26,251 nucleotides of DNA from a virus: IMG/VR virus record IMGVR_UViG_3300030104_006133, positions 1 through 26,251 of that record; one strand, 5' to 3'. Below, piece after piece: positions 4,152 through 20,777 of this stretch (positions within the stretch are counted from its first letter, which is position 1; each line of letters starts with the position of its first letter). The notes under the pieces were generated by a model. That model saw only the letters and a list, made by a program, of their open reading frames with translations. It was not told the origin of the DNA and searched no databases. Both the position numbers and the translations under genes were made by a program.

Positions 4152-4179
4152 TATAATCAAAGCAAGGAAAAGGTAAACG

Positions 4180-4536: not shown

Positions 4537-4541
4537 CGGAA

Positions 4542-4729: not shown

Positions 4730-4794
4730 ATTTTCGCTATTTTAGCTACGAAAACGGGGTGTTTCCGTTGTTTTCTCAACCCCTTAAAAAGGAT

Positions 4795-4814
4795 ATTCTC
4801 CCATTATTCTCCCA
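4795..4814 (+). repeat. Arm-type integrase repeats, right pair
   Basis: ATTCTCCCA occurs at 4795-4803 and 4806-4814, with the same 11-base period as the left pair. It lies 43-62 bases from the 3' end of the integrase gene. Confidence 0.75.
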
Positions 4815-4856
4815 CTTTTTCTGAGAAATATATTTTTAAGGAACACTTATTATACA

Positions 4857-6284: not shown

Positions 6285-6287
6285 TGT

Positions 6288-7397
6288 TTATTCTCCTTCG
6301 CTCATAATGATTTGCGCCCTTGCGTTAGCAAGTTCTGTAATGGATTGCAAATAACGATTGTCACGTTCGAGTAAGTACTCTTCTATAGTTGGCATAATAG
6401 TGTGTTCCAGGTCATCCAACACTAATTTAAAAAAATCATCTTTTTTAAGTTTTTTCCCATCTTTATCTTTGTAACTGTCGTAATGAAAAAAGATTGTTAA
6501 TTCCCTGTCTTTATTTTCAGGATCGCCATATATATCAAGTACTTTAACTCCTGCGGTAGTCATTTCTGGCCGTGTTTTGGGATTGGAGATATACATATAA
6601 GGAGATTCAATTGTGGTTTGCGTAACAAATTTGTGGGGTAAATTCTTAACGAACTCAGACGATTGGGGAACCTTGCCAGAAGTGTATATTTCGTAGTCCA
6701 TAAAGGATTCTTCATTTATTTCAAAAGCCAACCCCCGTACAATCCTAAACCTATCGTATTTACAGTTGAGTTTTGTCCAGATTTCCTTCTGCAAGTATGA
6801 TTCTAAGTGCCTGCTACCCCACTTCCAACCCGACATTGTCCGCATACTAATAGGATTGTCTGAGTATGTTGGAAGCCCTGTAGCCATATCCGTTTTACTA
6901 GAACATTGTTGAATAGAAAAATTGATTGAAGATTCTATAAAATCTTTTGCAGCACTTGTTAGGTCGTTAAAGTTATCGACAATCTTTTCGTTTATCCTTT
7001 TAAACCAGTTACTTTTAGCTATATTTAAAGACTGCACTAAAGATACATCGGCTCTAATTTTTTCTGCATATACATCAGGTAAATAAAATAAAGGATTTCC
7101 TGCATCTGGGGAATCCTCAAAAACTTGCATGTATTTTTCTCGCATGTCATCTGTAAAATGAGTAGTTCCGTTTTCTATTCTTGATAATGTTTTCTTGTTT
7201 ATGCCTAAAACACTAGCAAACTTTTCTTGATTACTTCCAAAACCATAAGTAGGTAAACTTCTAAGGTCTTTTAATCTTTGAGTTAAAGGTCGTTCAAATA
7301 AAACAAGTAAATCAGTTGTATCCGGCTCGCCAGTTACAGGGTTTTGTCGGAGATTAATTCTATTTTGTAAAGCTTGTTGTTTGGTTTTCGAAACCAT
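6288..7397 (-). CDS. Large XRE-type HTH regulator with unknown C-terminal domain
   Basis: The product has 369 residues. Residues about 40-98 form a Cro/CI-type helix-turn-helix: NQEKFASVLGINKKTLSRIE is helices 1-3, followed by ENGTTHFTDDMREKYMQVF. The remaining 270 residues match no domain I can name. They are mixed alpha/beta, with aromatic motifs such as MSGWKWGSRHLESYL (about 188-202) and SPYMYISNPKTRPEM, then a beta-rich KVLDIYGDP region and a helical end. There is no S24 peptidase signature (no Ser-Lys autocleavage pattern). AGGAG lies upstream, and the stop is within the ribosome site of int. The C-terminal part may sense a ligand or oligomerise; a control role in integration or lysogeny is inferred from the operon. 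Confidence 0.8.
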   Translation of the reverse strand: MVSKTKQQALQNRINLRQNPVTGEPDTTDLLVLFERPLTQRLKDLRSLPTYGFGSNQEKFASVLGINKKTLSRIENGTTHFTDDMREKYMQVFEDSPDAGNPLFYLPDVYAEKIRADVSLVQSLNIAKSNWFKRINEKIVDNFNDLTSAAKDFIESSINFSIQQCSSKTDMATGLPTYSDNPISMRTMSGWKWGSRHLESYLQKEIWTKLNCKYDRFRIVRGLAFEINEESFMDYEIYTSGKVPQSSEFVKNLPHKFVTQTTIESPYMYISNPKTRPEMTTAGVKVLDIYGDPENKDRELTIFFHYDSYKDKDGKKLKKDDFFKLVLDDLEHTIMPTIEEYLLERDNRYLQSITELANARAQIIMSEGE

Positions 7398-7435
7398 TTC
7401 TTCAACTCCTGTTTTTTTTCGATTTTTGGGCTAAA

Positions 7436-7496
7436 AACCCCAATAAGACAAAAACTGTCCTTTCGGCTCGTGCCTAGCAGGACACGATTTGGGGTT
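7436..7496. ncRNA. Nested stem structure in the leader of the XRE-type regulator
   Basis: Three nested helices are visible: AACCCCAA (7436-7443) with TTGGGGTT (7489-7496), TGTCCT (7456-7461) with AGGACA (7479-7484), and GGC/GCC closing a TCGT loop (7465-7474). On the minus strand this would be a folded 5' leader about 40 bases before the ATG of the gene at 6288-7397. A GGG/CCC hairpin with an AT loop adjoins it (about 7427-7441). It may be a cis-acting regulatory RNA, an attenuator or a separate small RNA on either strand. I do not recognise it as a named riboswitch. Confidence 0.45.
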
Positions 7497-7630
7497 GCAT
7501 GATTCTTTTTTCCTGTTATGTTGAGACTCCCCCTTTTATTGGTGGGGTTAATAAGTAGTATCAGTAGTGGTAATGGAGTAAATTATGCAGGAAGACAAGT
7601 TTGAAACGAAAATAACTGTTGACGATCTTT

Positions 7631-8059
7631 TTACTGGGAAACAGACATCGTATCTTCTGACAGATGATATAAGTCTTCGGAAGAATCGCTCAGCTCATGG
7701 GCTACTCGAAGAATTGCGTGTTGCAGAGCTGATGGAGTCTCTCGATAAAACCGAAGAAGATTCTCCTCATCTTCAGTAAGGTCTTTCCAAATTTGCAATT
7801 CATCTATTTCTTTTTTGTCTATCATGCCTAATTCTATAAAGGCTTTTATTACAGATTCCCCTGTAGCTGCACAAATGTCAGCTATTGCAGAAGCCGTGGT
7901 TGTCCCAGTTGTAGCCATTGAGCTAACAGTATTTACAGACCTGTCGGCAGCATCAGAAAGCGCTCTGGTCGAAGCAAATCTTTTCCCAGGACCGTAAAAT
8001 TTCTTAATCCATTTTTTAACTTTTTGTTTGTCTGGTTTTAGTTTTTTAGTCTCAACCAT
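7631..8059 (-). CDS. CI-like phage repressor, HTH type
   Basis: This 142-residue protein has a probable helix-turn-helix at about residues 26-75: RFASTRALSDAADRSVNTVS, then SAIADICAATGES, resembling the N-terminal domain of phage repressors. The C-terminal half is acidic and helical (EIDELQIWKDLTEDEENLL), suited to dimerisation. No autocleavage (LexA/S24) domain exists, so induction would need another route. AAGGAAAA precedes the ATG. The gene diverges from the Cro-like gene at 8203 across a 143-base control region and heads the leftward operon that includes the XRE-type regulator and the integrase. This is the classic place of a lysogeny repressor. The function is inferred from fold and context. 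Confidence 0.75.
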   Translation of the reverse strand: MVETKKLKPDKQKVKKWIKKFYGPGKRFASTRALSDAADRSVNTVSSMATTGTTTASAIADICAATGESVIKAFIELGMIDKKEIDELQIWKDLTEDEENLLRFYRETPSALQHAILRVAHELSDSSEDLYHLSEDTMSVSQ

Positions 8060-8098
8060 TGCATATTTTCCTTACCTAAAATTCATGTTGATTTAGCC

Positions 8099-8127
8099 AT
8101 CTTATCCAAATTAATATAAAAATTCAA
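8099..8127 (-). promoter_or_regulatory. Leftward promoter of the repressor gene
   Basis: On the minus strand TTGAAT (8122-8127) stands 17 bases from TAAGAT (8099-8104). The transcript would start near 8092, about 33 bases before the repressor ATG. The -35 lies in one of two ATTCAAC direct repeats (8122-8128 and 8135-8141), 13 bases apart, which may be regulator sites. Confidence 0.6.
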
Positions 8128-8156
8128 CTTTTTTATTCAACAGTACATAAATTTTC

Positions 8157-8186
8157 TTGACACTAAATATTTGTTGGTGGTACCAT
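8157..8186 (+). promoter_or_regulatory. Rightward early promoter
   Basis: A perfect TTGACA (8157-8162) is followed after 18 bases by TACCAT (8181-8186). The expected start near 8193 leaves only about 10 bases before the ATG at 8203, so the first gene would be almost leaderless. The promoter is back to back with that of the repressor. Confidence 0.65.
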
Positions 8187-8191
8187 ACAAA
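8170..8191. promoter_or_regulatory. Candidate operator dyad over the early promoter
   Basis: The imperfect dyad TTTGT-N3-TGGTACCA-T-ACAAA is centred on an 8-base perfect palindrome (8178-8185) and covers the -10 box. A repressor or Cro dimer bound here would block rightward transcription. Confidence 0.5.
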
Positions 8192-8202
8192 AAATCAAAC
8201 AA

Positions 8203-8475
8203 ATGTTTAACAAAAAGTGCAACATGGTAAATTCATCTAGACATTCTATATTTAACAAGAAGTCAATTGACGAGATTAATTCGCTCACAGGTTATACCTT
8301 TCACTATTTAGTGGATATAAAAGAAGGGCGCAAGAAAGAAACAGCTCAATTAAAAACTATGTTTGACTTGGTTTTGCGTTGCGATGAGCTTGAATCTATT
8401 AATTCTAATAAAGATGTACGGATAGCCGAATTAGAAACTCAACTAGAAATGGATAGGATATCTCATGGTGCTTGA
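8203..8475 (+). CDS. Cro-like small DNA-binding protein (90 aa)
   Basis: This is the first gene of the rightward operon, directly after the early promoter. Residues about 20-45 (SIDEINSLTGYTFHYLVDIK followed by EGRKKE) look like a short helix-turn-helix with a basic end. The rest is a charged, coiled-coil-like helix (ELESINSNKDVRIAELETQL). Position and size fit a Cro-type regulator. No ribosome binding site is seen before the ATG at 8203 or before the second ATG at 8224, so translation may be leaderless or inefficient. Its end overlaps the next gene by 11 bases. A coincidental HTH-like match is possible. Confidence 0.6.
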   Translation: MFNKKCNMVNSSRHSIFNKKSIDEINSLTGYTFHYLVDIKEGRKKETAQLKTMFDLVLRCDELESINSNKDVRIAELETQLEMDRISHGA

Positions 8476-8827
8476 TCTAACAAAATACGATTACGTTAAA
8501 ACATATTTTTTTACTGACGAAGACCCTGAGTTATCAGACCCAGAAGTCATGCAAAGGTTTTTAAGAATCAGAAAAAAAATAGAACGAGAACATAATATTT
8601 TAGGTTATGCCAAAGAGTACGGCATGACTATGGACGCAGAGCAAGTTGCTAACTATCTCAAGCTAAGCAAAAGCTCTGTATATGACTTAAAAAAGAAAGG
8701 CTATATTTTGCCCGCATCTATGACTAACGGAGAAAAAGGGGATCGATATATGACAGGTCATATTATTGATTATGTAGCAAAACGATTTACGTTAGCAGAA
8801 AAACAAATTAGCTATCAAAGGGGGTGA
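8465..8827 (+). CDS. HTH_17-type DNA-binding protein (120 aa)
   Basis: The product has 120 residues. Residues about 55-110 match the excisionase/MerR-like winged-helix class: MTMDAEQVANYLKLSKSSVY is the helix-turn-helix, followed by DLKKKGYILPASM and a final helix HIIDYVAKRF. The N-terminal 50 residues are acidic and helical. AGGA lies 8 bases before the ATG. It overlaps the Cro-like gene by 11 bases. Its location behind the rightward promoter suggests an early transcription or replication regulator, similar to a CII-type or origin-binding protein. It is a second candidate for the excisionase, less well placed than the gene at 4180. Confidence 0.7.
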   Translation: MVLDLTKYDYVKTYFFTDEDPELSDPEVMQRFLRIRKKIEREHNILGYAKEYGMTMDAEQVANYLKLSKSSVYDLKKKGYILPASMTNGEKGDRYMTGHIIDYVAKRFTLAEKQISYQRG

Positions 8828-8830
8828 ACT

Positions 8831-9487
8831 ATGGTAGCAGAACAATATCCAAATATTCCGGGTATACCGGATAAACCAAAACTTAGATTCCATTATCCAT
8901 ATGGTGTAGATTCTGAGTTACTAAGAGCTTTTGACAAAGAGCAAGTTGACTTAGCATTCAACCAGGCACTTCCAAAGCTTTTAAAATTTGTCGATGCGTT
9001 TGCGGTCTATGACGACAATGATTTAGGTTATGCAAATCTTGACGTAAGCAAATTCGATAACGCACCGAATATGCAATTCAATTACCATGCCGATCTATTT
9101 AACGACAGCGACAAATATACTGTTCGGTTAGATGGAGCCATTGTATTTGAAATGACTATATCGGCAGGCAAACGTGAATATTCAATTCCCACAGGGAGAT
9201 ATCTCAGTAAAGTAGATTTCTACAAAGAATGTAAGACTACTGGAGAGAAGGTAATTGACTTAATAAATCAGTTGCCACGTTGGATTCAGTTGCAAAAGAA
9301 TTACTTAAAAGAGATAAAACTAAAATTAATACCAGACTATCGCGTTTTAACATATTTTTCGCTAAAACACTTTGTCGAGATATTAAGTGTAGAAATTGAC
9401 GAATGTCCCGATTGCGGAAGAATTATGAGTGACGACAACTCAGAACCATATTGTGACAACTGTGTTTATAAGGGGGGAACAGTTTAA
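8831..9487 (+). CDS. Hypothetical protein with C-terminal zinc ribbon (218 aa)
   Basis: This unrecognised 218-residue protein ends in a zinc ribbon: CPDCGRIM near residue 193, then YCDNC near 207-211. The body is mixed alpha/beta with many aromatic residues (FNYHADLFNDSDKYTVRLDG, about 84-103). AAGGGGGTGA precedes the ATG, 4 bases after the previous stop. It is followed with a 1-base overlap (TAATG) by the candidate recombination protein. The arrangement suggests a role in DNA recombination or replication, perhaps nuclease or partner loading, but no catalytic motif is visible. Confidence 0.7.
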   Translation: MVAEQYPNIPGIPDKPKLRFHYPYGVDSELLRAFDKEQVDLAFNQALPKLLKFVDAFAVYDDNDLGYANLDVSKFDNAPNMQFNYHADLFNDSDKYTVRLDGAIVFEMTISAGKREYSIPTGRYLSKVDFYKECKTTGEKVIDLINQLPRWIQLQKNYLKEIKLKLIPDYRVLTYFSLKHFVEILSVEIDECPDCGRIMSDDNSEPYCDNCVYKGGTV

Positions 9488-10341
9488 TGACATTAGAAAA
9501 TATTACAGACATAGAAATAGCTGCAACCAACGCAATTGCGACAAGCCCAAAGCAGGCGACCCAGGAAGCTAAAGAGTGGGCAGAGTCTCTAATGCACGTT
9601 GTGGATACCGCTACAGACGATAAAGGTAAACCAACTATGTATGTCAATTTAAAAGGTAATAAGTACCTTAAAGTTGAAGCATGGGAATTAATAGGTAAGT
9701 TTGCCGGAGTGTCTGCACAAACCCAATCAGTAAATGCAGTATATGAACATGATGAGTGGAAGGGATACGAAGCTCATGTCATCTTAGTTGATAAGAATAC
9801 TGGACAGCCGGTAGGTGGAGCCGCAATGGCGTATTGTGGGGAAGACGAGCATGTTGCACAAGGACAGTATACGGAAGGCGGCAAACGTAATGCGGTAATG
9901 TCTATGGCTCAAACCAGAGCTACTAGCAAAGCGTTTAGGCTTAACTTTGCATTTGTTGCCCAGTTAGGTAAATACCAGTCTTTACCTTGGGATGAAGTGA
10001 CAGATGAGATGAAAGGTATTCCAAAGCCAGAACCAGAGTATCAGGGTGCTGTAACCATTCAACACAAAGGTGTAGAAGCTGACATTCCAGTTCAACCAAA
10101 ACCAAAACAGGTTAGTGAACAAAATAAAGATAAGCCTGCTAGTGAAAAAACAATTGGTTACTTTATAAATATTGCCGACCATGTTAGCCAAAATACTCCA
10201 GATTATGCTCACATAGGAAACTGTGAAGACATCTTAGAGACTAAGAAAAAAATAGATGCTAATGAATTTGTTTCTCAAGGCGAAGCAAGTAAATTACTTG
10301 ATTTATATAGTGAAACTTATAAGCAGTTATCAAGGTATTAA
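9487..10341 (+). CDS. Candidate phage single-strand annealing (Erf-like) recombination protein
   Basis: The product has 284 residues. The diagnostic block at residues 133-160 is KRNAVMSMAQTRATSKAFRL followed by NFAFVAQL. It resembles the conserved A-x-TRA-x-s-x-A-x-R core I know from phage ssDNA-annealing and Erf/RecT-like proteins. Before it comes a beta-rich part (YKA-type strand pattern, GYEAHVILVDKNTG, GGAAMAYCGED); after it LPWDEVTDEM. A Pro/Lys-rich linker (about 178-215) leads to a small helical C-terminal domain (216-284), as in SSAPs with a flexible tail. The gene sits before a RecA-fold ATPase and a RusA-like resolvase, a coherent recombination module. The family assignment is by memory of motif and context; HHpred would decide. 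Confidence 0.6.
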   Translation: MTLENITDIEIAATNAIATSPKQATQEAKEWAESLMHVVDTATDDKGKPTMYVNLKGNKYLKVEAWELIGKFAGVSAQTQSVNAVYEHDEWKGYEAHVILVDKNTGQPVGGAAMAYCGEDEHVAQGQYTEGGKRNAVMSMAQTRATSKAFRLNFAFVAQLGKYQSLPWDEVTDEMKGIPKPEPEYQGAVTIQHKGVEADIPVQPKPKQVSEQNKDKPASEKTIGYFINIADHVSQNTPDYAHIGNCEDILETKKKIDANEFVSQGEASKLLDLYSETYKQLSRY

Positions 10342-10348
10342 ACAGCAG

Positions 10349-10375
10349 GGCGAACTGTAACTGCAACGGTTCGCC
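10349..10375 (+). terminator. Stem-loop after the recombination gene
   Basis: GGCGAAC (10349-10355) pairs with GTTCGCC (10369-10375) around a 13-base loop, followed by TTCATTACAT. It is weak as a stand-alone terminator but lies just before a stronger one at 10395. Confidence 0.5.
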
Positions 10376-10394
10376 TTCATTACATAAAAATAAT

Positions 10395-10432
10395 AGGTAG
10401 CGCTCTTTTAACCTATGGGGGCGCTACCTTTT
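10395..10432 (+). terminator. Rho-independent-type terminator or attenuator
   Basis: AGGTAGCGC (10395-10403) pairs perfectly with GCGCTACCT (10421-10429), followed by TTTT. It divides the early operon into 8.2-10.3 kb and 10.4-14.4 kb segments. No clear new promoter follows, so read-through or antitermination is implied. Confidence 0.65.
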
Positions 10433-10454
10433 CGTATCTTAAAAAGGTGGATTA

Positions 10455-10793
10455 ATGACAGATTTATCACGAGAAGACAAAATCGACAGCTTATTACAAA
10501 AGCAAGTTGACATCTTAAATAAACTGTCTGAAATAGGAAACACCTGCACTTGTGAAGCCCGCTGTGCATGGCATGTATTCGGAAAACTCGAGATACAACT
10601 ATCAACACTACTCTTAGAAAAAGAACGTGAATATTTTCTCAAAGAACAAGACGTAAAACTTTACGTTAGTGACGTAGCCGGAATGATGTCTGGCTTTAAA
10701 AAGTTTGTTCATAAAAAAATTGACGAGAAAGTTAAAAGAGAAAATTTACAACCAGTCCCAATAACCAGGAGAGCTATCGATGACATTGGATAA
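10455..10793 (+). CDS. Hypothetical helical protein (112 aa)
   Basis: This 112-residue protein appears fully helical and charged. The first 30 residues can form a coiled coil (EDKIDSLLQKQVDILNKL). A CTCEARCAWH cluster (about 31-40) could bind metal or form contacts. A long helix KEREYFLKEQDVKL follows. AGGTGG lies 6 bases before the ATG, just after the terminator at 10395-10432. It overlaps the ATPase gene by 14 bases. It could be a small accessory or loader for the ATPase, judged only by position. Confidence 0.7.
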   Translation: MTDLSREDKIDSLLQKQVDILNKLSEIGNTCTCEARCAWHVFGKLEIQLSTLLLEKEREYFLKEQDVKLYVSDVAGMMSGFKKFVHKKIDEKVKRENLQPVPITRRAIDDIG

Positions 10794-12126
10794 CGATGTT
10801 TTGACCACCCGCTTTCCTTTACTGAACCCTGAACTTAATCAAGATCAGAATAACGGAACAGGCGTTTTAGCAAAGCGTTTAATATTCGATGGTTATCAGC
10901 TTAATTTTATTGCTAACGGACTGCACCCAAGATCAACAGGACCCCATGCAACAATTTCTATTTGTGAGCAAAGCCCTAATTTTAAAATTGATCCAGAGAA
11001 AACCCCATACGGTAAGTTAATTGCCTATGACACTTTTAATATAGGTAAAGACAGCGACAGGGGAAGGCTTGCAAATTCTGCTTATAAATTACTAGTTCCT
11101 AAAGACGAAAAATCATACAGCCCTTACAAAACAGTTGGGTACGATAATGATTTTTTGAAAGTTGATATGAATGAATTCTGCAAACAGATTGAACAAGTCT
11201 GGGAATCTCAATTTGATTCAGAATTAACTACGGGAGACCCGACCCTTATTCAAAAACATCGTATACATTCTTTCCTGCCGGTAGATGGAGGCAGTATTGT
11301 CTATGCACGTCCTAAATCAGGTAAGTCCTTCTTAGCACTTGCTATGGCAGTTTCTATTGATAGTGGCGTAAATAAATTCTGGAAAGTTGAACAATGTCCG
11401 GTGCTATATGTCAATCTGGAAAGGTCTGCCAGAAGTATGCAACAAAGATTAGGTAACGTGAATCGGGCATTAGGTTTAAAACCAAACCGACCACTCAGAT
11501 TCTTACATGCCAGAGGAAGATCACTTAAAGACATTGTAAATCCTATTAAAAAAACAATGTCCAGACATAATATCAAGTATGTGATTTTAGATTCTATATC
11601 TAGGTCTGGGATGGGAGACCTTACTTCAAATGATGTAGCAAATCGTATTACAGATAGCCTTAATTCTATTATTGAAAAAGGAGATAACGAGAGAGGATAT
11701 CTCGCTATTGCTCACACTAGTTGGAGTGAAGAGCATGTATATGGAAGCATCCATTTTGAAGCAGCAGCCGACTCGATTTGTTCAGTAAAAACTTCAAAGA
11801 ATGAATATAACGAACTAGGAGTTCAGTTACAAGTTGATCGTGGTAACGATGTTTCGTCCGGGGTAGAACTCCCAATGCTTAAATTTGCCTTTAATGAATT
11901 TGGTTTGAATGAAATTTCTAGTGCTTCAGCAGATGATTTCCCAGATTTAATTCCCGACACATTAAGCGAACGCATAAGTAAATACCTTGTAAGAAACCCT
12001 GACAAAACCCCAGTCGAAATAAGTGAAAGTTTAAAAATTAACGACAGTTCTGTTAGAGGAATTTTGCATCGCAATAAAGAAATGTTCAAAAAGAACGGAT
12101 CGACATACAGGATGGCAGAAGAATGA
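10780..12126 (+). CDS. RecA-fold AAA_25 (RepA-like) replicative ATPase
   Basis: The product has 448 residues. Residues about 155-380 form a RecA-type ATPase: Walker A ARPKSGKS at 176-183, VLYVNLER with a likely catalytic E214, Walker B YVILDS with D271, and a sensor-like IAHTSW near 310-315. This pattern fits the AAA_25/RepA hexameric helicase family used by plasmids and phages. The first 150 residues are variable and could bind DNA or a partner; no primase (TOPRIM) motif is visible. Residues about 393-448 look like a winged helix (ISKYLVRNPDKTPVEISESL, SVRGILHRN). A role as phage replication helicase or initiator is likely. It shares an ATGA overlap with the next gene. Confidence 0.82.
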   Translation: MTLDNDVLTTRFPLLNPELNQDQNNGTGVLAKRLIFDGYQLNFIANGLHPRSTGPHATISICEQSPNFKIDPEKTPYGKLIAYDTFNIGKDSDRGRLANSAYKLLVPKDEKSYSPYKTVGYDNDFLKVDMNEFCKQIEQVWESQFDSELTTGDPTLIQKHRIHSFLPVDGGSIVYARPKSGKSFLALAMAVSIDSGVNKFWKVEQCPVLYVNLERSARSMQQRLGNVNRALGLKPNRPLRFLHARGRSLKDIVNPIKKTMSRHNIKYVILDSISRSGMGDLTSNDVANRITDSLNSIIEKGDNERGYLAIAHTSWSEEHVYGSIHFEAAADSICSVKTSKNEYNELGVQLQVDRGNDVSSGVELPMLKFAFNEFGLNEISSASADDFPDLIPDTLSERISKYLVRNPDKTPVEISESLKINDSSVRGILHRNKEMFKKNGSTYRMAEE

Positions 12127-12602
12127 TTCAATTATGTTTCAGTAATATTTCATTCGTAACAAATGAAACATCTGCATCTAAAAAGCCGGTTTGTAAAAAG
12201 TGTAAAAGCAAAGACCTATCAAAAGATGTCGACGGGTTCCCACTATGTGTTCATTGCGGATGGGTTGATTATTCAAAAGATATTCCTAAAGCAAAACAAC
12301 CCAAGGCAAAGCATTTGAGAACAGCTTCTGTGCTTTTGAAATACATAGGTGTTGGGAAAAATTTAAAAGAAAAACTGTTACAGGTTTATGTGAAAGATAG
12401 TAAAGGTCAGCACAACGAATATAACAAAATTAGATACGAAGCTAACTGTCCCTTTTGTCCGGGCAACAACAGGATTCAAGCAACCAACCGCAAAGTTTTT
12501 ATAGGCAGAAAAAATACATTCATCAGATATTTAAATTGTTCAAACAAACACAAAATTAGATTTATAGAAACTAATGAGGAAGGGTTATTGGGATGGCAAT
12601 AA
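12123..12602 (+). CDS. Zinc-ribbon hypothetical protein (159 aa)
   Basis: The product has 159 residues and two apparent metal sites. The first (residues about 24-45) is CKKCKSKDL followed by CVHCGW, a classic ribbon. The second (about 109-141) is CPFCPGN and a later C in YLNCSNKHK. A basic linker (DIPKAKQPKAKHLR) joins them. This organisation resembles zinc-ribbon regions of phage primases and DNA-binding proteins, and the place right after the helicase-type ATPase would suit a primase accessory. No polymerase or TOPRIM motif is present. The ATG overlaps the ATPase stop (ATGA). Confidence 0.7.
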   Translation: MIQLCFSNISFVTNETSASKKPVCKKCKSKDLSKDVDGFPLCVHCGWVDYSKDIPKAKQPKAKHLRTASVLLKYIGVGKNLKEKLLQVYVKDSKGQHNEYNKIRYEANCPFCPGNNRIQATNRKVFIGRKNTFIRYLNCSNKHKIRFIETNEEGLLGWQ

Positions 12603-12973
12603 AAAAACCAATAAAAATAGTATTGCCAAATCTGCCACCTAAGGAAGCTAACCCTAACAGTAACTCACATTTCTACACACGTTCTCGTGTACGCAGAGAG
12701 CAACATGAACAGATGATTGGGTATGTACTGGAACAAGGAAGACCTGATAAACCTTTTGATAAAGCACACATCACTATAACGTGGCGTGCTAAAGATAAAA
12801 GAACACGGGACATCGACAACTTGCTCTCAGCGATGAAAGGTAGCATTGATGGACTTGTAGAAGCAGATGTATTAGTAGATGACTCAGCTAAACATCTGTC
12901 TTACACCTTGTTCTATGAGTGGGGAGATGACGTTACAGAGAATGAAACTATTCTTGAGATTACAGAAGCATGA
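12593..12973 (+). CDS. rusA: RusA-family Holliday junction resolvase
   Basis: This 126-residue protein matches RusA, the small dimeric endonuclease that resolves Holliday junctions, in length and motif. The key block is TRDIDNLLSAMKGSIDGLVE with D73, D75 and N76, then DVLVDDSAKHL with D96 and D97. These correspond to the acidic metal-binding residues of RusA. The conserved lysine is not at its usual place, four residues after the second aspartate (a serine here); K82 three residues further on may take its role. Strands ITITWRA and YTLFYEW flank the motif. The gene overlaps both neighbours and belongs to the recombination/replication operon. Confidence 0.85.
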   Translation: MAIKKPIKIVLPNLPPKEANPNSNSHFYTRSRVRREQHEQMIGYVLEQGRPDKPFDKAHITITWRAKDKRTRDIDNLLSAMKGSIDGLVEADVLVDDSAKHLSYTLFYEWGDDVTENETILEITEA

Positions 12974-13185
12974 AGTGTACTCATCACTACATAGTCGAAC
13001 CGCCAGACGGATCAAGTACAGGTAACGGACTTGTATCCATAGGAGTTTGCAAAAATTGTGGCGATAAAAAGATTCACTCAAATGATTATGACGCTGAGAA
13101 GGTAACCCTTAGACAGATAAGAAAAGGACAATGGAGAAAGATTAAAAACTTTGTAATTGGAAACGGAACACCGAGAGTTAAATGA
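12970..13185 (+). CDS. Small Cys/His metal-binding protein (71 aa)
   Basis: The 71-residue product begins MKCTHHYIVEPPDG and has SIGVCKNCGDKKIHSND near residues 23-39. The four ligands C3, H5/H6, C27 and C30 suggest a zinc site. The order C-x-HHY-x-IEPP-DG-x-G-x-CK-x-CG recalls a frequent small domain in phages and some bacteria (including Chloroflexota) that often stands near DNA-binding proteins. The C-terminal half is basic (RQIRKGQWRKIKNF). It overlaps the resolvase and the methyltransferase by ATGA junctions. The function is unknown; nucleic acid binding is plausible. Confidence 0.7.
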   Translation: MKCTHHYIVEPPDGSSTGNGLVSIGVCKNCGDKKIHSNDYDAEKVTLRQIRKGQWRKIKNFVIGNGTPRVK

Positions 13186-13709
13186 GCAATGTGGTTACAC
13201 CTACCTACAATACAATCAGCATCTGCTCCGGATACGGAGGAATTGAACTTGGACTCAATCAGGTTATCTCAGCTCGAACAATCTGCTATGTGGAAATCGA
13301 AGTTTCGGCAGCAACGATCTTGGCTACTCGTATGGAAGAAGGACATATCGATAAAGCGCCTATCTGGTCTAACCTTAAAACCTTCGACCCTAAACCATGG
13401 CGTGGAAAAGTGGATATCCTCACAGGTGGATTCCCATGTCAGCCATTCAGTATTGCAGGGAAAAGAAAAGAACAAGACGATGATAGAAACCTCTGGCCAG
13501 ATGTCGCAAAACTCATTAGGGGACTTGGGGTTCCAATCGTCTTTCTTGAAAATGTTCCCGGAATCCTTAGATACTACTGGGACACCATACGACCTGAACT
13601 ACGAGAGATGGGTTACGAAGTTACGGAAGGACTCTTCACGGCGGCAGAAACAGGCGCACCTCATAAAAGAGAAAGACTTTTTATCATGGCGTACTCCACA
13701 AGCATCTAA
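13182..13709 (+). CDS. Cytosine-5 DNA methyltransferase, motifs I-VIII only
   Basis: The 175-residue ORF shows the catalytic half of a C5-cytosine methyltransferase: SAM-binding motif I SICSGYGGIE (13-22), motif IV GGFPCQPFS with the nucleophile C86, motif VI LENVPG (E123-N124-V125), and motif VIII GAPHKRERLFIMA (158-170). It then stops at 13707-13709. The target recognition domain and motifs IX-X are missing from this reading. This frame has many stops until 14103, where a second ORF in the same frame supplies motif X. The DNA between is open only in the +1 frame. The start has an ATGA junction with the gene before. It may be one subunit of a split enzyme, a frameshifted gene, or half of a frameshift-fused product. 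Confidence 0.82.
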   Translation: MSNVVTPTYNTISICSGYGGIELGLNQVISARTICYVEIEVSAATILATRMEEGHIDKAPIWSNLKTFDPKPWRGKVDILTGGFPCQPFSIAGKRKEQDDDRNLWPDVAKLIRGLGVPIVFLENVPGILRYYWDTIRPELREMGYEVTEGLFTAAETGAPHKRERLFIMAYSTSI

Positions 13710-14325
13710 TCTGGGAAGTCGAAACAAAGGATATGGAAAAGTGTTAAACGAAGAAGCTAAAAACTGGCCAACACCAAGGGCCAGAGATGATTTTGGGCCA
13801 CAGCGATCTATGGTTGATGGGCAATGTATCTCTCCTGATGGTCAAAGATGGGGGCTTGATCTTCCTATGGCTGCTGTAAACTGGCCTACTCCAACGACTC
13901 AAAAAATTTCACATAAAGACATGGAAGTAAATGAGAAGGGTCGGAGAATGACTAAAGATAAAAAAGATAGTCACTCCCTCAACTTACAAGATACAACTGC
14001 TAACTGGACCACGCCTTTAGCGGATGACACAGGAATGAGAAAAAAGAAATTCGCCCAAGGTGGCACCGCATTGTCATTGCAGGCATTAGAGGAGGAAAAA
14101 TCATGGCCGACACCGGAAATTTACCCGTCTATCCCCCCGGACCCAAAGAAACAGATAGATGGACACACATGCTCAGTATCGTGCCGAAGGCTCAACCCAC
14201 ATTTTGCCGAGTGGTTGATGGGGCTATGTCTGGGGTGGACATCCGTCTCAGAGCCATTGGAAACGGAGTCGTTCCAAGCGTGGCAGCAATTGCTTTCAGA
14301 ACTCTTGCAAAAAATCTCGGATTAA
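13189..14325 (+). CDS. Overlapping +1-frame ORF with WPTP-type repeats, methyltransferase locus
   Basis: This 378-codon ORF fully overlaps the methyltransferase halves in another frame. Its last 200 residues contain repeated W-x-TP motifs: SWRTPQASN, NWPTPRARDD, NWPTPTTQK, NWTTPLADD and SWPTPEIYP. They are followed by LNPHFAEWLMGLCLGWTS, the usual end of WPTP proteins I recall next to phage cytosine methyltransferases. Between 13710 and 14102 it is the only open frame. The 5' 500 bases overlap motifs I-VIII and the 3' 220 bases overlap motif X. Either it is an overprinted gene, or its middle part is the target recognition region of the methyltransferase, reached by a +1 shift near the T5 run at 13678-13682. 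The true start is uncertain. Confidence 0.55.
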   Translation: MWLHLPTIQSASAPDTEELNLDSIRLSQLEQSAMWKSKFRQQRSWLLVWKKDISIKRLSGLTLKPSTLNHGVEKWISSQVDSHVSHSVLQGKEKNKTMIETSGQMSQNSLGDLGFQSSFLKMFPESLDTTGTPYDLNYERWVTKLRKDSSRRQKQAHLIKEKDFLSWRTPQASNLGSRNKGYGKVLNEEAKNWPTPRARDDFGPQRSMVDGQCISPDGQRWGLDLPMAAVNWPTPTTQKISHKDMEVNEKGRRMTKDKKDSHSLNLQDTTANWTTPLADDTGMRKKKFAQGGTALSLQALEEEKSWPTPEIYPSIPPDPKKQIDGHTCSVSCRRLNPHFAEWLMGLCLGWTSVSEPLETESFQAWQQLLSELLQKISD

Positions 14326-14363
14326 ATTCTTTAATTAAACATTCATCCAATATGAAGACCTAG
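14103..14363 (+). CDS. Cytosine-5 DNA methyltransferase C-terminal part, motif X
   Basis: This 86-residue ORF is in the same frame as the 13182 ORF. It begins with YPPGPKETDRW and carries CRVVDGAMSGVDIRLRAIGN followed by GVVPSVAAIAF, the motif IX/X end of phage Dcm-type enzymes, which completes the SAM pocket. A strong ribosome site (GAGGAGG, 7 bases before the ATG at 14103) argues that it is translated on its own. Split C5 methyltransferases are known: M.AquI, and M.EcoHK31I, whose second polypeptide is encoded in an overlapping frame. Alternatively it is the detached tail of a broken gene. It is the last gene of the rightward operon. Confidence 0.7.
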   Translation: MADTGNLPVYPPGPKETDRWTHMLSIVPKAQPTFCRVVDGAMSGVDIRLRAIGNGVVPSVAAIAFRTLAKNLGLNSLIKHSSNMKT

Positions 14364-14997: not shown

Positions 14998-15942
14998 TTA
15001 TTTGACACTTACGTTCCTTTCAACAATGTTGTTTATGCTTGGTATAGAACTTACTTTTACAGTGCCAACTGATCCATCTGTAGAGCCTATTCTGAAACTG
15101 GCATTATCAATTCCTGTCCCATTTCCAAAAATAGATCGATCAGTATCTGTACCTTTAATCACAACTGAACTGCAGGTTAGGTTAGCTAAGTTAATCCCTG
15201 TGTTAAATGCAGAGACTCTTTCAAATCTAATTGTTCCAATAGTAGTTGTGGCAGTTCCGGAGTTCTGGATAATAATTCGGTCAACATCCACTCCAGATAC
15301 TTCAGGTATATTTAATGCTCCTCTGGTACTTCCAAAGCGATAATCTACCGGGTCGTTTGAAAGAGTTCCATTTATAGATACTCCATCAGCTGTAGTAGTT
15401 CCGACAGATAATGAATAAATAGTTGATGTCCCTAGTTTAAATGTAGGTGATTCGACATCTATGATCTCTAGTTTTTCGCATACGATTGAACCACTTCCAG
15501 TACTGGATATAGATATTGCATCAGTAAAGCTAGGGCTATCGGCACCGACATTAACATCTGTAAATATAATGTCTTGGATTCTTGCTCCCCCAACTTCTAA
15601 AAATAGAGTTTGAGTTGGCTGAGAATTTCTTTGACCTTCTCCAATTGTTTTTAAATCTCTAGCCTGAGAAGCACCTGCATCATAAATTGCAGGTTCAGGA
15701 TATACTGGCACTTGATCTAATCCCTCTATGGAAAAATAAATAGCACCAGATATAACTAGCGTAGAAACAAGTAATGCAGAAGCAACAATAGATTTACTTC
15801 TTTTGCCCAAATTTAATCCTGTAATGGTTGGGCTTTTTAAATTAAAAGAAATCGGTAAAGTTATTTTAAATTTAATTAAAGGTATGCTGAGGGTTGGGAA
15901 GTGAATCTGTCTCTCTTTAATTATTAATTTCCATTTTTTCAT
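14998..15942 (-). CDS. Membrane-anchored beta-rich protein (314 aa)
   Basis: Residues 1-50 are basic with amphipathic repeats (KFKITLPISFNLK). Residues 51-71 (SIVASALLVSTLVISGAIYF) form one membrane helix. The remaining 240 residues are Ser/Thr/Gly-rich with regular short beta strands (SVGTTTADGVSINGTLS, RIIIQNSGTATTTIGTIRF), as in beta-solenoids. The predicted topology is an inside tail and a large periplasmic or extracellular domain. A perfect AGGAGGT ribosome site precedes the ATG by 5 bases. It lies among small membrane proteins downstream of the tail genes. It could be a superinfection exclusion protein, a spanin-like envelope protein or a membrane-tethered tail-fibre paralogue. No family is recognised. 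Confidence 0.75.
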   Translation of the reverse strand: MKKWKLIIKERQIHFPTLSIPLIKFKITLPISFNLKSPTITGLNLGKRSKSIVASALLVSTLVISGAIYFSIEGLDQVPVYPEPAIYDAGASQARDLKTIGEGQRNSQPTQTLFLEVGGARIQDIIFTDVNVGADSPSFTDAISISSTGSGSIVCEKLEIIDVESPTFKLGTSTIYSLSVGTTTADGVSINGTLSNDPVDYRFGSTRGALNIPEVSGVDVDRIIIQNSGTATTTIGTIRFERVSAFNTGINLANLTCSSVVIKGTDTDRSIFGNGTGIDNASFRIGSTDGSVGTVKVSSIPSINNIVERNVSVK

Positions 15943-15966
15943 CAGAACCTCCTGTTAATTAAGTTC

Positions 15967-16221
15967 TTATTTTTTGTTTCCCATGTCTTCAAAAATCTTT
16001 GTTAACCCTGCAGAAACGGGCAAAGTCATCACGGCCAAAGCTGTTAACAAACCCTCGATATTCTCCAAGGTCTCCTGAGACGTTGTAGCACTCCAAATTA
16101 TTCGTGCGGCAAGGAAAAGCCAAGTAAAAACAATAGGAGAAAAAATAACTAACACTATTAGTTCACGACCCGTAATAGTCGTAGCTTCTTTCACTTCTTT
16201 TTGTTTTTTTTCAGATGTCAT
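15967..16221 (-). CDS. Two-helix membrane protein (84 aa), holin candidate
   Basis: The 84-residue product has a charged N-terminus (TSEKKQKEVKEA), a first membrane helix at about 20-44 (LIVLVIFSPIVFTWLFLAAR), a loop with acidic residues, and a second helix at about 56-74 (GLLTALAVMTLPVSAGL). The size and topology are those of holins. The ATG overlaps the stop of the coiled-coil membrane gene (TAATG), which suggests that the two products act together. It is the stronger of the two holin candidates by length. The alternative is a small membrane protein in entry exclusion. Confidence 0.7.
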   Translation of the reverse strand: MTSEKKQKEVKEATTITGRELIVLVIFSPIVFTWLFLAARIIWSATTSQETLENIEGLLTALAVMTLPVSAGLTKIFEDMGNKK

Positions 16222-16415
16222 TACCCACCTCTAAATTTGATAGCTAAATATGCTGAAACTCCTATAGATATTCCTGTAACTATTATTCCTAAAACTCCTA
16301 ATTTTTTTGTTCTTTGCATTGCTCTCCTTTTTTCTAGGTCTATCCTTGCAAATATCTTTTGCAAGTCTTGAACTTGATTACGTAGTCGTTGTTGTTCTTG
16401 ATCTTTGTAATCCAT
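16221..16415 (-). CDS. Coiled-coil membrane protein (64 aa), spanin- or XhlA-like
   Basis: I start this at the ATG 16413-16415 (MDYKDQEQQR), with GAGG 5 bases upstream; an in-frame GTG two codons earlier is less likely. Residues 5-38 form a charged coiled coil (RNQVQDLQKIFARIDLEKRR). A C-terminal membrane helix follows (LGVLGIIVTGISIGVSAYLA, about 41-60), ending in KFRGG. This coiled-coil then one-helix layout is similar to hemolysin-XhlA-type phage proteins that accompany holins. Family membership is by architecture only. It overlaps the holin candidate by one base. Confidence 0.65.
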   Translation of the reverse strand: MDYKDQEQQRLRNQVQDLQKIFARIDLEKRRAMQRTKKLGVLGIIVTGISIGVSAYLAIKFRGG

Positions 16416-16424
16416 AACCACCTC

Positions 16425-16757
16425 TTAACTCTCTCCAGACTTAGGTATTTTTCCTTGATTAATAGCGTGTCTTTTAACTGCTTTCATTTGAGCAATTCCC
16501 AAATGTGTAAGCCCACCAAATCCTGCTATTCCACGATTGTTAAATTCTTGAAAACTGTCTTTCTTTTTTCCTACACCTTTAGCTTTCCATTCTTTCGCCC
16601 AGGTGTTTGCATAATTAGTAACCATAAGCACAACATCTTCCGGATAATCGTGACGTTGCAACATGTCATCAAGTGCTCTTTTGATACGAGCCAAAGCCTT
16701 ATCGTTTTCTTCTCCGACCAATTTAGCCAAAGGCATTCTTCCTTCAGGTATTTTCAT
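16425..16757 (-). CDS. Hypothetical soluble protein (110 aa)
   Basis: A longer reading is open to 16835, but the ATG at 16755-16757 (MKIPEGRMPLAKL) is preferred because it has AAGGTGG upstream and a 4-base ATGA overlap with the 880-residue gene. The product is basic and helical (LVGEENDKALARIKRALDDM, then NYANTWAKEWKAKGVGKKKD), with a Gly-rich turn NNRGIAGFGGLTHLG. I do not recognise it. Its place between the largest tail protein and the membrane cluster may mean tail completion or lysis. No muramidase or amidase motif is visible. Confidence 0.65.
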   Translation of the reverse strand: MKIPEGRMPLAKLVGEENDKALARIKRALDDMLQRHDYPEDVVLMVTNYANTWAKEWKAKGVGKKKDSFQEFNNRGIAGFGGLTHLGIAQMKAVKRHAINQGKIPKSGES

Positions 16758-19396
16758 GATGCCACCTTCTCTATAAGTGTTAATGTACAAAGTCCCGATC
16801 TTTCTGCTAATGAGTTTGGACCACCTGCTTCCCATGTTTTTAACCCATAGGAAAAGCTACTTCTCTCTCTGTCTGCAGCTACAAATTTATCGACTGCTCC
16901 AAACTTAAAACTAATTTGTGCAACGCTGTTAATTAATGTTTCTAAATTAGAAATTACTGTTTCTATTGACTGTCCTGTCTGCTGTGCAGTTGCATCTATA
17001 TCGACAACCATCTGATGTTCATATGCAGTAGTAGGAGATACGTATCCCTCGACTACAATATCTCGTAATTTGGGTGTATCAGTATTTGTATTGCCACGAT
17101 TGATATTTAATCTGAGTGCCATATTTTTAGCTGATACTCCTGCACCTGACGCAAACGGAAGTTTAGATGTGGCAGATGTAATATCGCCTAGGTCAGTTGT
17201 CAGCGCTGCATTATCTAAACCATAGTCAACATTGATATATTCTTTATCGGATCCCGTAGAAGAATCTAAGTCATCTGCAATGACATGAGCATTTAAGAAG
17301 TTCTTATTTTCCTGTGGGATACCTAAATCAAAGAATGGTAAATCTATGGTTCCTGATTGTCCTGCGCTATGGTCTTCTCTTTTTAGTGCTACTCCACTTG
17401 CAGGGTTAGTTAATGGATATTCAATATAATGTGATGTAGATGTACTAGTTCCTGTAGAAATATTGTAATGAAGTAAAGGTGTACCTATACCGCCATCGTC
17501 TGCACTAGATATATCCATCCATTGTATTTCTCTATCAGCTGTAGAACTTCTTGCTATATGATGCCAACCTCTGCCGTTCCAACACAAAATGCGACCATTG
17601 CGACTTGCAGCTCCACCACCTACTGATGCAAATAAAAAATCACCTGCCGAAACTAATTTTTTAAAACTACCTAATAAATCTGATGGAACACCATCTCCGT
17701 AATCCAATCCAAATCCGGCTTCTAAAGTTTTTGTGTTATTTGTATTTGTAAGTCTCCTCATACCTGCAGCAGTATTAGTGTCTGCTCCAACCGGGTACCA
17801 TAAGGCTCCTTGATGAACAATCATGTCCCGACAATTGTCAGCAGAACCTGACATCTTATCTACATGTTCAATTGTCCAGTTTGTTGGTGCCGTATCACAT
17901 TCATAAAGTCCGGTTTCAGTTCCTATATATAACTTCTGTTCCCCATCAGTACCTGTCATTACGGCAAGTCCCTTAATTCCGGAAGTAGAATATATATTTA
18001 CGGCTGCTCCGGCTGCGTCATTTTCTATAGTCCAGTTATCGCCATCATCTGTTGACCTAAAAAATACAATTTTAGAATTTGTTTCATCCCATATAGCAGC
18101 AATTAATTCACCGCCAATTTCCGCTAGTTTGCCTGCGTCAATACTTTCTCCGGCTGTAACAGAGTTAAGTAATACATGAGAACCTAATTGTCCTGTACTA
18201 GATGCTGTCCATGTAGCACCATCTGTTGAAACACTTACATGAAACTCATCATTAGCTAGAAAAAGTGCAACTAAATTAGGGCCGCTAACAGCTAAATCTA
18301 GTGGCATTAATCCACCTTTAAATCTCATAGTTTGAACAGCGTGAGCAAATGAAGTTGAAGAAAATGTTTGAACTTGTGTTAATGAAGTATCAGGCGAATA
18401 ATTTCTTGTGACTCTTGCTTGCCCTGTAGTAGTGGAATTTATAGATGTTCCACCTGTGCCTGCAGCAGGAGCTGTACCTGATGCTTCTATAAATGCCATA
18501 TCAAACCCAACGTCACCTATTGTTACTGTAATTGCAGAGGTATTTGTTGAGGTTGCATTACTATCGCTATTAGATGTTCCACCTGAAACAGCACTAGATA
18601 CATTGTTTAAAGCAACTACAATTGCAGTTCCTCTACCACCACTCATATCTCCAGAAAAAGTTGCTACAGCACTAGCAGTTCCAACAGCAGGGTTTGCTAT
18701 ACCAAACACAGTAACAATGTTATCGTCAGTTCCATCAGTACCTGCTGTACGTAATTTACTCATAGCAGAACCGCCAAAAGTAGCACTATCAGTAGTTCTG
18801 TGGCTACTAGTTTTACGAGTTCCTACAAACAAAAGAACATATCTGTCTTCTCCTGCGGTAGCTACATCAACAGAAACTGAAGTTCCTGATGTAACACTAG
18901 CATTAGCTGACCCTGTCACATAACCTCCATGTGAATGTAAGTTATCAACTTCGCCTGCTTCTTCCCATTGAGGGTCATCGTCACTATCAAACTTAGCACA
19001 TGAGATTTCATGTCCAGTTGTGTCTTCAAATAACGCAAACAACGTACCTTTAAATTCTGCTGATGCCCTTATTCTTTCAAGACCTGTATGACTTGCAGTT
19101 GTTGATAGTAATGGTAGGTATATAGTTTCAAATCTTGTCTCAGATGTAGAGTTCCAAAACCTCTTATATTCTTCTGGGTCAAATGCTTTGTCAGATGATA
19201 TTTTGTTTGAGCCAAATCCATTCATTAAATTAGGAATAACAAATGATTCATACGGAGCCGTATCTTCCGGTCTTGTGCGACCAGTTTCTCTTATCGGCTG
19301 AATGTATTGCTGTACAGGGCGTGTAGTTACCTTACTGCCATCTTTATCGCCCACTAAAGCATATCCGTTTGAATTTATTTCTACGTCAAGTGACAT
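16754..19396 (-). CDS. Large tail protein with Asp-box propeller and inserted domain (880 aa)
   Basis: This is the largest protein of the window. Residues 1-150 form a start module. Residues about 160-355 are a Ser/Thr/Gly/Ala-rich domain with the pattern YVLLFVGT, ATFGGSAMSK, VTVFGIANPAVGTASAVATF and RGTAIVVALNNVS, which looks like an inserted beta sandwich. Residues about 365-640 have Asp-box (BNR) signatures, VSTDGATW (about 389-396) and RSTDDGDNW (447-455), typical of sialidase-type propellers. The last 200 residues include RDIVVEGYV and a helical segment (IETVISNLETLINSV), then a compact end. It is probably a tail-tip or receptor-interacting protein. The neighbours upstream and downstream overlap with it. 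Confidence 0.78.
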   Translation of the reverse strand: MSLDVEINSNGYALVGDKDGSKVTTRPVQQYIQPIRETGRTRPEDTAPYESFVIPNLMNGFGSNKISSDKAFDPEEYKRFWNSTSETRFETIYLPLLSTTASHTGLERIRASAEFKGTLFALFEDTTGHEISCAKFDSDDDPQWEEAGEVDNLHSHGGYVTGSANASVTSGTSVSVDVATAGEDRYVLLFVGTRKTSSHRTTDSATFGGSAMSKLRTAGTDGTDDNIVTVFGIANPAVGTASAVATFSGDMSGGRGTAIVVALNNVSSAVSGGTSNSDSNATSTNTSAITVTIGDVGFDMAFIEASGTAPAAGTGGTSINSTTTGQARVTRNYSPDTSLTQVQTFSSTSFAHAVQTMRFKGGLMPLDLAVSGPNLVALFLANDEFHVSVSTDGATWTASSTGQLGSHVLLNSVTAGESIDAGKLAEIGGELIAAIWDETNSKIVFFRSTDDGDNWTIENDAAGAAVNIYSTSGIKGLAVMTGTDGEQKLYIGTETGLYECDTAPTNWTIEHVDKMSGSADNCRDMIVHQGALWYPVGADTNTAAGMRRLTNTNNTKTLEAGFGLDYGDGVPSDLLGSFKKLVSAGDFLFASVGGGAASRNGRILCWNGRGWHHIARSSTADREIQWMDISSADDGGIGTPLLHYNISTGTSTSTSHYIEYPLTNPASGVALKREDHSAGQSGTIDLPFFDLGIPQENKNFLNAHVIADDLDSSTGSDKEYINVDYGLDNAALTTDLGDITSATSKLPFASGAGVSAKNMALRLNINRGNTNTDTPKLRDIVVEGYVSPTTAYEHQMVVDIDATAQQTGQSIETVISNLETLINSVAQISFKFGAVDKFVAADRERSSFSYGLKTWEAGGPNSLAERSGLCTLTLIEKVAS

Positions 19397-20724
19397 TAAA
19401 ACACCATTCTTGGAACGGCTACTGGAGGGGCTTTAACTTTTATCAAGTTACCCTCAACCGCTCTGATATAAGATTCTTCATATTGACGTGCCATCTCAGC
19501 CCAATATGATGTAGGGTCTGCGGCAGCCATTCTAAGTGCGACAAGTTGTCTTACTTTGTCATATAGGGGATGTAATAATTCTCCGTCTACTTCGACTGTA
19601 TCTGAATCAGCAGATACGCTAGAAAGCATGTCCCTTCCAACTATTCTGATTCTTCTTTTGTCAGGTAATATCTCAGAGAATCTCAACACTCCGCCGTCAC
19701 TAGCTCCTGCTACCGGAGGAACGTGTTCCCAGTTTCTTAGTTCTGTATATGGAATATCAGTCATTTCACTCTGACCTAATGTCATCCATACCTCATCAAC
19801 AAATACAGGTATTGCAGCCCCTGAAGATATACTTACCCCAACTGCTATAGATGTTGCTGTAGCACCTAAGTTGGCACTACCTTTTAAAAGTTCCCATCCT
19901 GTTCCGCTATGCGTTGCACTAAGGGCAGAACCTATATAAAGACTTACCCTAGATGCAGTCGTGCAATATACCCAAGCAGCAAGATTACATTCTTGCCCCT
20001 CTGTAGCTACAGCAGTATACGAACTAGATGTGGAATCGTAGGTTTGTAAAAGAGTTGTAACAACACTACTTGGAACTAATATCCTTGCAGAATTATCGCC
20101 ATATAATACGCCGTAGTTTTCCGGGTTAGTAGTTTCAGCTTCCTGATTTACACTTGCACCTGACCCGCTAATTGACCAGTTGTCACAAGATGTAGTGGTT
20201 GTCCAATCTTCAAAGTCACCATTTAACAGTAAGTTATCCCCTGATTCAGCAGTTCTTTTATTTCCTAGATAAACTCTGTCTATCCTTCGCATAGTAGATG
20301 GAAGAGTATATGTATGCTGTCTGTTACCTGTAATGATAGTTTCCAAATCCCTTACCAAAGCAATATCTGGAAACACCTGTTCACGGGCTTCGTTATATAA
20401 ACTCAATACATCACTCGGGTCTACAGCAGACAATTCATATGTAGCTCCACTAGAGTCTGCACTCCAGTTTGCACCTGCTGCTGTAAGGGTTCCTGACGAT
20501 GCAACGTAATCAGTTAATCTTCTGATTTGTCCTGAATTATTTTGTGATGTTACTTGAATAAACCATCTATTATTAAAATAATCATTTACGCTAAATCTCT
20601 TTGTTAAATTAGTATCAATGACAGATGCGTTAGAAGAAGACAAGTTTGTAGTTACGGTCCCTGTTACAAGACCCATAGGTCTCAATATATCTTGTCTCAT
20701 TGTTGAGAATGTAGTGGTCGGCAT
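19396..20724 (-). CDS. Tail/connector structural protein with CBM-like insertion (442 aa)
   Basis: The 442-residue protein begins MPTTTFSTMRQDILRPMG. A first part (1-150) ends in helical DPSDVLSLYNEAREQVFPDI. Residues about 150-165 read MRRIDRVYLGNKR. Residues 168-320 contain NLLLNGDFEDWT and further strands typical of the carbohydrate-binding beta-sandwich (CBM_4_9-like). After this the core resumes (ILPDKRRIRIVGRDML, then LYDKVRQLVALRMAAADPTS and a helix WAEMARQYEESYIRAVEG). The resumed helical end is like that of tail-completion or stopper-type proteins in podovirus-like phages. The insert could bind glycans. AAGGAAGG precedes the ATG. It overlaps the 880-residue gene by one base. Confidence 0.72.
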   Translation of the reverse strand: MPTTTFSTMRQDILRPMGLVTGTVTTNLSSSNASVIDTNLTKRFSVNDYFNNRWFIQVTSQNNSGQIRRLTDYVASSGTLTAAGANWSADSSGATYELSAVDPSDVLSLYNEAREQVFPDIALVRDLETIITGNRQHTYTLPSTMRRIDRVYLGNKRTAESGDNLLLNGDFEDWTTTTSCDNWSISGSGASVNQEAETTNPENYGVLYGDNSARILVPSSVVTTLLQTYDSTSSSYTAVATEGQECNLAAWVYCTTASRVSLYIGSALSATHSGTGWELLKGSANLGATATSIAVGVSISSGAAIPVFVDEVWMTLGQSEMTDIPYTELRNWEHVPPVAGASDGGVLRFSEILPDKRRIRIVGRDMLSSVSADSDTVEVDGELLHPLYDKVRQLVALRMAAADPTSYWAEMARQYEESYIRAVEGNLIKVKAPPVAVPRMVF

Positions 20725-20777
20725 TAAGCACCTTCCTTATATTTAATATTTCTATACCAATTACGTTGATAGAATTT

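Follow-up and report, generated by a model that had tools for sequence, protein, structure and literature searches.

A phage DNA cytosine-5 methyltransferase probably made as three overlapping polypeptides in two reading frames

We analyzed a window of 26,251 nucleotides, positions 1 to 26,251 of the IMG/VR virus record IMGVR_UViG_3300030104_006133. At 13182-14363, on the plus strand, three open reading frames overlap in two frames, and the coordinates and translations of the locus checked out as first given. Frame A encodes A1 (alpha-1; 13182-13709, 175 amino acids) and, further downstream, A2 (alpha-2; 14103-14363, 86 amino acids), which has its own ATG and ribosome-binding site. Frame B, at +1, encodes a single protein, B (beta; 13189-14325), that runs for 378 codons without a stop from an ATG at 13189. 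The start region (13182-13193) is compact: the A1 ATG at 13182 overlaps the stop codon of the ORF that precedes it (ATGA), and the B ATG overlaps an in-frame-A GTG (ATGTG, 13189-13193). The A2 ATG at 14103 lies 7 nt after the sequence AGGAGG (14090-14095), and between motifs VIII and IX frame A contains 12 stops versus 9.5 expected from synonymous shuffles of B. The initial annotation had described a methyltransferase locus alternating between two overlapping frames, with motifs I-VIII, a stretch rich in stops and then motif X behind a strong ribosome site in frame A, and with five W-x-TP repeats and an LNPHFAEWLMG end in a fully open frame B; all of these features were confirmed.

The locus follows a temperate phage early region (3026-12973) that includes a GP88-family protein, a tyrosine integrase on the minus strand (4857-6284), an HTH repressor-like ORF (6288-7397), an AAA_25/DnaB-like helicase (10780-12126) and a RusA-like resolvase (12593-12973). 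Beyond it, 14998-26052 is occupied by a run of minus-strand ORFs, one of them of 880 amino acids (16754-19396); among those that were searched, Pfam matches were absent and PHROG matches nearly so.

A1 corresponds to the large catalytic domain of a C5 methyltransferase, with motifs I-VIII. It reads MSNVVTPTYNTISICSGYGG...GGFPCQPFS...ENVPG...GAPHKRERLFIMAYSTSI in frame A up to the stop at 13709, and the codon for the catalytic cysteine of PCQ lies at 13437-13439. A1 matched the Pfam family PF00145 (7.9e-35) over the first half of the profile only (positions 1-162 of 324) and the PHROG family phrog_363 (1.6e-45). Motifs I, IV (PCQ), VI (ENV) and VIII (QRxR-like) were all found, and P85, C86, Q87, E123, N124, R163 and R165 are invariant across the relatives. 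A profile of these relatives matched M.HhaI over 13-176 (6e-29). In a further profile-to-PDB comparison, M.HhaI aligned over motifs I-VIII only, and motif IX was not aligned directly. Motif X lies in A2, in frame A (RLRAIGNGVVPSVAAIAF, 14244-14300, containing RLRAIGNGVVP), and was assigned from matches to phrog_363, phrog_29583 and phrog_32758 and from frame-A constraint.

B comprises, from N to C terminus, a loosely constrained leader over motifs I-VIII, five W-x-TP modules that form a putative target recognition region, and motif IX (LNPHFAEWLMGLCLGWT, 14191-14241), which was located with a column profile over 151 loci and by pN/pS; the protein ends LNPHFAEWLMG...GWT. It matched phrog_1008 ("DNA methyltransferase"; 6e-19), and a Pfam search with B and its beta homologs returned no family. 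The modules lie at 13687-13764 (module 1, WRTP), 13765-13881 (module 2, WPTP), 13882-14004 (module 3, WPTP), 14005-14103 (module 4, WTTP) and 14104-14190 (module 5, WPTP), the last of which overlies the start region of A2 in the other frame. Module 3 is 69-73% identical in nucleotides to the third module of the related loci L014 and L015 and to the first of L035. Compared with L011 (L009), the window is 88% identical in nucleotides over motifs I-VIII and the upstream flank and 96% identical over the last module, motif IX and motif X, and the two have one module in common at 99% (module 4 of the window, module 3 of L011), the other modules being unrelated. One near-identical module amid unrelated ones, between similar flanks, shows that W-x-TP modules are exchanged as cassettes between related phages. 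Internal modules have a median length of 37 residues, close to the roughly 38-40 amino acids of TRDs in multispecific phage methyltransferases. The modules of the window are both tandem and exchangeable, and by analogy with those TRDs each module may recognize a DNA target.

The identity of B was indicated by relatives in which its conserved part is joined to the other motifs. In 53 of 66 actinobacterial genome loci, a B-type segment (an EWMMG motif IX, then motif X) lies in one ORF with motifs I-VIII, the same modules, motif IX and motif X being fused to them in frame. For the actinobacterial protein L202, the PF00145 DNA_methylase model spans the whole protein (profile positions 1-321 of 324), and an AlphaFold2 model (pTM 0.77) matched M.HhaI (E 1e-13). 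Frame A stops after motif VIII in mycobacteriophages Alma and Firecracker and in Arthrobacter phage Jamun, where B comprises modules, motif IX and motif X; the beta proteins of these phages matched phrog_116 (1.6e-7 for Jamun, 9.2e-6 for Firecracker and 5.6e-5 for Alma), a family that matches A1 too. As the conserved part of B is fused between motifs VIII and X in actinobacteria and beta proteins match phrog_116, we infer that B is the target-recognition region plus motif IX of the same enzyme. The motif IX assignment draws on the fused homologs, the Pfam coverage of L202 and selection, with the phrog_116 matches of beta homologs also adduced; a PDB profile search with beta homologs gave a chance hit only, and an AlphaFold2 model of B alone was poor (pLDDT 54, pTM 0.22). 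We consider it highly probable from these comparisons that B provides the small, target-recognizing domain and A the large, catalytic domain, on separate chains as in M.EcoHK31I.

This outcome supports an earlier proposal that frame B supplies a target recognition region, which is constrained in B as well as fused in frame in actinobacteria. An overprinted second gene, also proposed, stands to the extent that B would be a second polypeptide, and fails in that B appears to be the small domain of the same enzyme and not a new protein. Homologs with one continuous frame had been named in advance as evidence against the split; they do exist, in actinobacteria, where they identify B and do not refute the division.

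Loci were classified with HMMs for motifs I-VIII, frame-B motif IX and motif X. In a first locus set, a single classified locus departed from the +1 placement of B relative to A. Because this set had been found partly through B, we repeated the scan with motifs I-VIII alone. Among the 80 phage loci recovered in this way, motif IX lay in the +1 frame in 78, and frame A was continuous through motif X in 67. Over motifs I-VIII of these 80 loci, with the first 20 codons excluded, the +1 frame contained 0 stops where synonymous shuffles of frame A predict 168; the +2 (third) frame was not depleted (465 versus 496 expected), and a single-frame actinobacterial control had 82 +1 stops versus 117 expected. 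Stop counts on B-defined regions are biased, and the whole domain and the loci found through A were used instead. Named phages with the same +1 overlap but a continuous frame A include Synechococcus phage Yong-M2-251, Phage C75C1, Burkholderia phage BcepC6B, Paenibacillus phage Shelly and an Acinetobacter phage. Alpha is a single chain (motifs I-VIII plus X) in 135 relatives, whereas frame A of the window falls into A1 and A2. A query of E. coli genomes with the coliphage copy returned no more than two partial matches.

The starts of the two frames are closely linked. Frame B opens with (A/G/T)TG TGG in 54 of 100 loci, and there a frame-A GTG overlaps the B start codon by one base (ATGTG); 28 of the 54 have no frame-A start codon upstream of that GTG, and A1 of the window has the additional ATG at 13182. 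These overlapping starts suggest that A and B begin at practically the same place.

The dual-frame selection check called for in the initial annotation showed frame A constrained in motifs I-VIII and X, and frame B in the modules and motif IX. Pooled pN/pS by divergence class, which in overlapping frames is a contrast and not an absolute measure and was referred to the third frame and the single-frame control, was about 0.24-0.50 for frame A over motifs I-VIII; there, frame B gave about 0.9 in classes up to 90% identity and 1.5 in the closest class, and the +1 frame of the control gave 1.1-1.2. The pattern reversed in the module region (B 0.30-0.32, A 1.5-1.7) and in motif IX (B 0.28, A 1.4-1.5). 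Within the window's own clade, the values were 0.24 in A and 0.98 in B for motifs I-VIII, 0.43 in B and 0.73 in A for motif IX, and 0.39 in A and 0.83 in B for motif X. Purifying selection thus switches frame along the locus, from A to B and back to A, and each frame is a conserved protein in its own segment only, being kept open but little constrained elsewhere. A selection signal in frame B, the absence of which would have counted against the initial annotation, is accordingly clear in the modules and motif IX (about 0.3) and barely present in the leader over motifs I-VIII (0.98). Over 13182-13709, the amino acids of B are barely constrained and only openness is selected. The idea that B looks conserved merely as a shadow of A holds for this N-terminal part and was rejected for the modules and motif IX, where B is constrained while A is not.

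Constraint confined to its own segment, with openness elsewhere, fits two separately translated full-length chains: an alpha chain of motifs I-VIII, filler and motif X, and a beta chain of leader, modules and motif IX. In all relatives, residues 1-165 of B amount to some 165 codons without stops and an almost free amino acid sequence. A nearly unconstrained N terminus of this length is odd for a subunit and counts against the separate-chain model.

The broken frame A of the window recurs. In the first set, frame A was stop-rich between motifs VIII and IX in 14 loci, near the chance number, and without stops there in 85 loci versus 343 expected. The first A2 ATG is preceded by a Shine-Dalgarno match of at least 5 nt in all 10 three-piece loci with motif X in frame A (the window, L011-L015, L058, L098, L099 and L112), compared with 7% of ATGs in the background and 8.5% of those in frame A of continuous loci. 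Two more loci flagged as broken lack this match: L156, which has a truncated assignment of motifs I-VIII and was excluded from the tree, and L179, which was classified as having motif X in frame B. In a FastTree tree of motifs I-VIII, whose deep branches are uncertain, the three-piece form needs three or more separate origins, and the window's seven-row clade includes one continuous locus. Each of these origins appears to have come with a new Shine-Dalgarno site ahead of motif X. In a further group of phage loci (L062, L079, L089, L102, L136, L173 and L179), motif X has moved to B and A consists of motifs I-VIII only, a change seen many times on the tree.

Together, these data make it likely that three overlapping polypeptides, each translated separately, make up a single phage DNA cytosine-5 methyltransferase at this locus. 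The large catalytic domain (motifs I-VIII) would come from A1; the small domain, with its W-x-TP target-recognition modules and motif IX, from B in the +1 frame; and motif X, which in C5 methyltransferases packs against the large domain, from A2 with its own ribosome site. The three chains would assemble and methylate phage DNA, most likely as an escape from host restriction, and the target sequence would be determined by the module cassettes that related phages exchange. Translation of each ORF, assembly of the chains, activity and the role of the modules in specificity are predictions from sequence. Of the readings put forward at the outset, the two-subunit enzyme resembling M.AquI or M.EcoHK31I is strongly supported by layout, frame-specific selection, in-frame fusions and restart sites.

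A +1-frameshift fusion, another of those readings, would have ribosomes slip downstream of motif VIII, with the T5 run as a possible site, and return before motif X to yield one fused polypeptide. The order A, B, A would then restore the canonical succession of motifs I-VIII, TRD, IX and X, and fused homologs exist. However, T5 occurs in 10 of 155 loci only, and no conserved slippery site was found at the frame junction. The N-terminal half of B and the middle of A would be useless in such a fusion and could carry stops, yet they are open; the start of B near or overlapping that of A is conserved, and A2 gains its own Shine-Dalgarno site whenever frame A breaks. Programmed frameshifting is therefore very unlikely. 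A1 and B might also suffice as a two-chain enzyme with A2 dispensable or untranslated, and according to PMC3404938 C5 methyltransferases do tolerate fragment complementation. Against this, motif X in A2 is constrained (0.39), a Shine-Dalgarno site precedes A2 in every three-piece locus, and where motif X has moved to frame B the frame-A copy is absent; we regard a superfluous A2 as most improbable. That B is an unrelated overprinted protein with its own function, overlapping the methyltransferase by chance, would agree with an N-terminal part of no known fold and with a family of its own, phrog_1008; it is extremely improbable, as actinobacteria have the conserved part of B in one frame with motifs VIII and X, between the two, and motifs I-VIII occur in every classified locus of the first set, which was itself ascertained in part through B. 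Decay of the gene, or a sequencing or assembly error (for which the T5 run at 13678-13682 had been singled out), would account for the dozen or so stops in frame A and is barely credible, being refuted by an independent sister assembly (IMG/VR contig 3300030382_003628; 99.58% identical over 6693 bases, 28 substitutions, no gap there or elsewhere), by a six-locus clade of the same layout (L011-L015, five further IMG/VR relatives, keep the three ORFs; 0 B stops over motifs I-VIII versus 13.9 expected) and by purifying selection in A1, the B modules, motif IX and motif X. The sole difference from the sister contig inside the locus, at 13259, is silent in frame A (Asn) and changes residue 24 of B, in the leader, from Ile to Thr.

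In M.EcoHK31I, the beta gene lies in another frame inside alpha. According to the summary in PMC3404938, the large subunit of this alpha/beta enzyme (Lee, Kam and Shaw 1995, cited there) carries motifs I-VIII, motif X and the predicted TRD, and the small subunit motif IX only. The three-chain arrangement proposed for the window is similar in that motif IX is on a second polypeptide in an overlapping frame, with motifs I-VIII in the other. It differs in that alpha itself is cut in two, with motif X on a third chain, in that its modules are shuffled cassettes, and in that these are constrained in B (0.30) and not in A (1.5-1.7), whereas the TRD of M.EcoHK31I is, by its description, in alpha. That published division, with recognition in alpha, counts against the split proposed here. 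An out-of-frame split C5 methyltransferase was thus already known; the window would add the third chain and the recognition region in B. M.AquI, as PMC3404938 outlines it, is a two-subunit C5 methyltransferase with motifs I-VIII on one chain and motifs IX and X on the small subunit. Here too, motifs I-VIII and IX are on different chains and the split is in the variable region, but motifs IX (B) and X (A2) of the window are on different chains and in different frames; the mycobacteriophage-type relatives (A with motifs I-VIII; B with modules, IX and X) are the most M.AquI-like. Phage C5 methyltransferases of the multispecific kind, with TRDs in tandem (Trautner et al. 1996, as cited in PMC12707154), resemble the window, with its tandem putative recognition modules (median 37 amino acids), in arrangement and size and are, unlike it, single-chain. 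The actinobacterial single-chain C5 methyltransferases, L202, L206 and L251 among them, share the EWMMG type of motif IX as well as motif X, joined to motifs I-VIII in one ORF; unlike the window, they are encoded in a single frame without overlap, and their +1 frame has stops.

More tentatively, with the odds if anything slightly against it, the window may be the three-chain extreme of a widespread class of phage C5 methyltransferases with domains in overlapping frames, a shared start and shuffled W-x-TP cassettes, multispecific and evolving their targets by cassette exchange; in the same reading, each frame of that class would be constrained as protein only in its own segment and merely open elsewhere. 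An oddity described in 1995 for one enzyme now looks commonplace among phages (78 of 80 relatives). Here purifying selection can be seen plainly to move from one reading frame to the other inside a single enzyme. These loci also provide natural experiments on the ways of cutting a C5 methyltransferase, and a ready collection of exchangeable modules, which may determine the DNA target sequence.

A literature search, itself partial, found no paper describing the phage-wide arrangement, and the out-of-frame split C5 methyltransferase is apparently both widespread and under-annotated in phages. Two related IMG/VR loci did not fit the classification, L078, whose B shares the phase of A yet lies in a separate ORF, and L083, where the frames seem to cross; a natural frameshift or an assembly error may be behind each. 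The annotation blind spot is that records usually annotate just one chain of the pair, at times the wrong one. In Acidovorax phage Alfacinha3 (L005), the ORF annotated as "cytosine-specific methyltransferase" (2501-3667) is frame B, without catalytic motifs, and the true catalytic frame A is 2464-3648. Similarly, phrog_1008 (PHROGs v4), named "DNA methyltransferase," matches frame-B proteins (modules plus motif IX), the presumed recognition subunit, without the catalytic cysteine motif, and the record of Paenibacillus phage Shelly names the B ORF "g55 internal gene."
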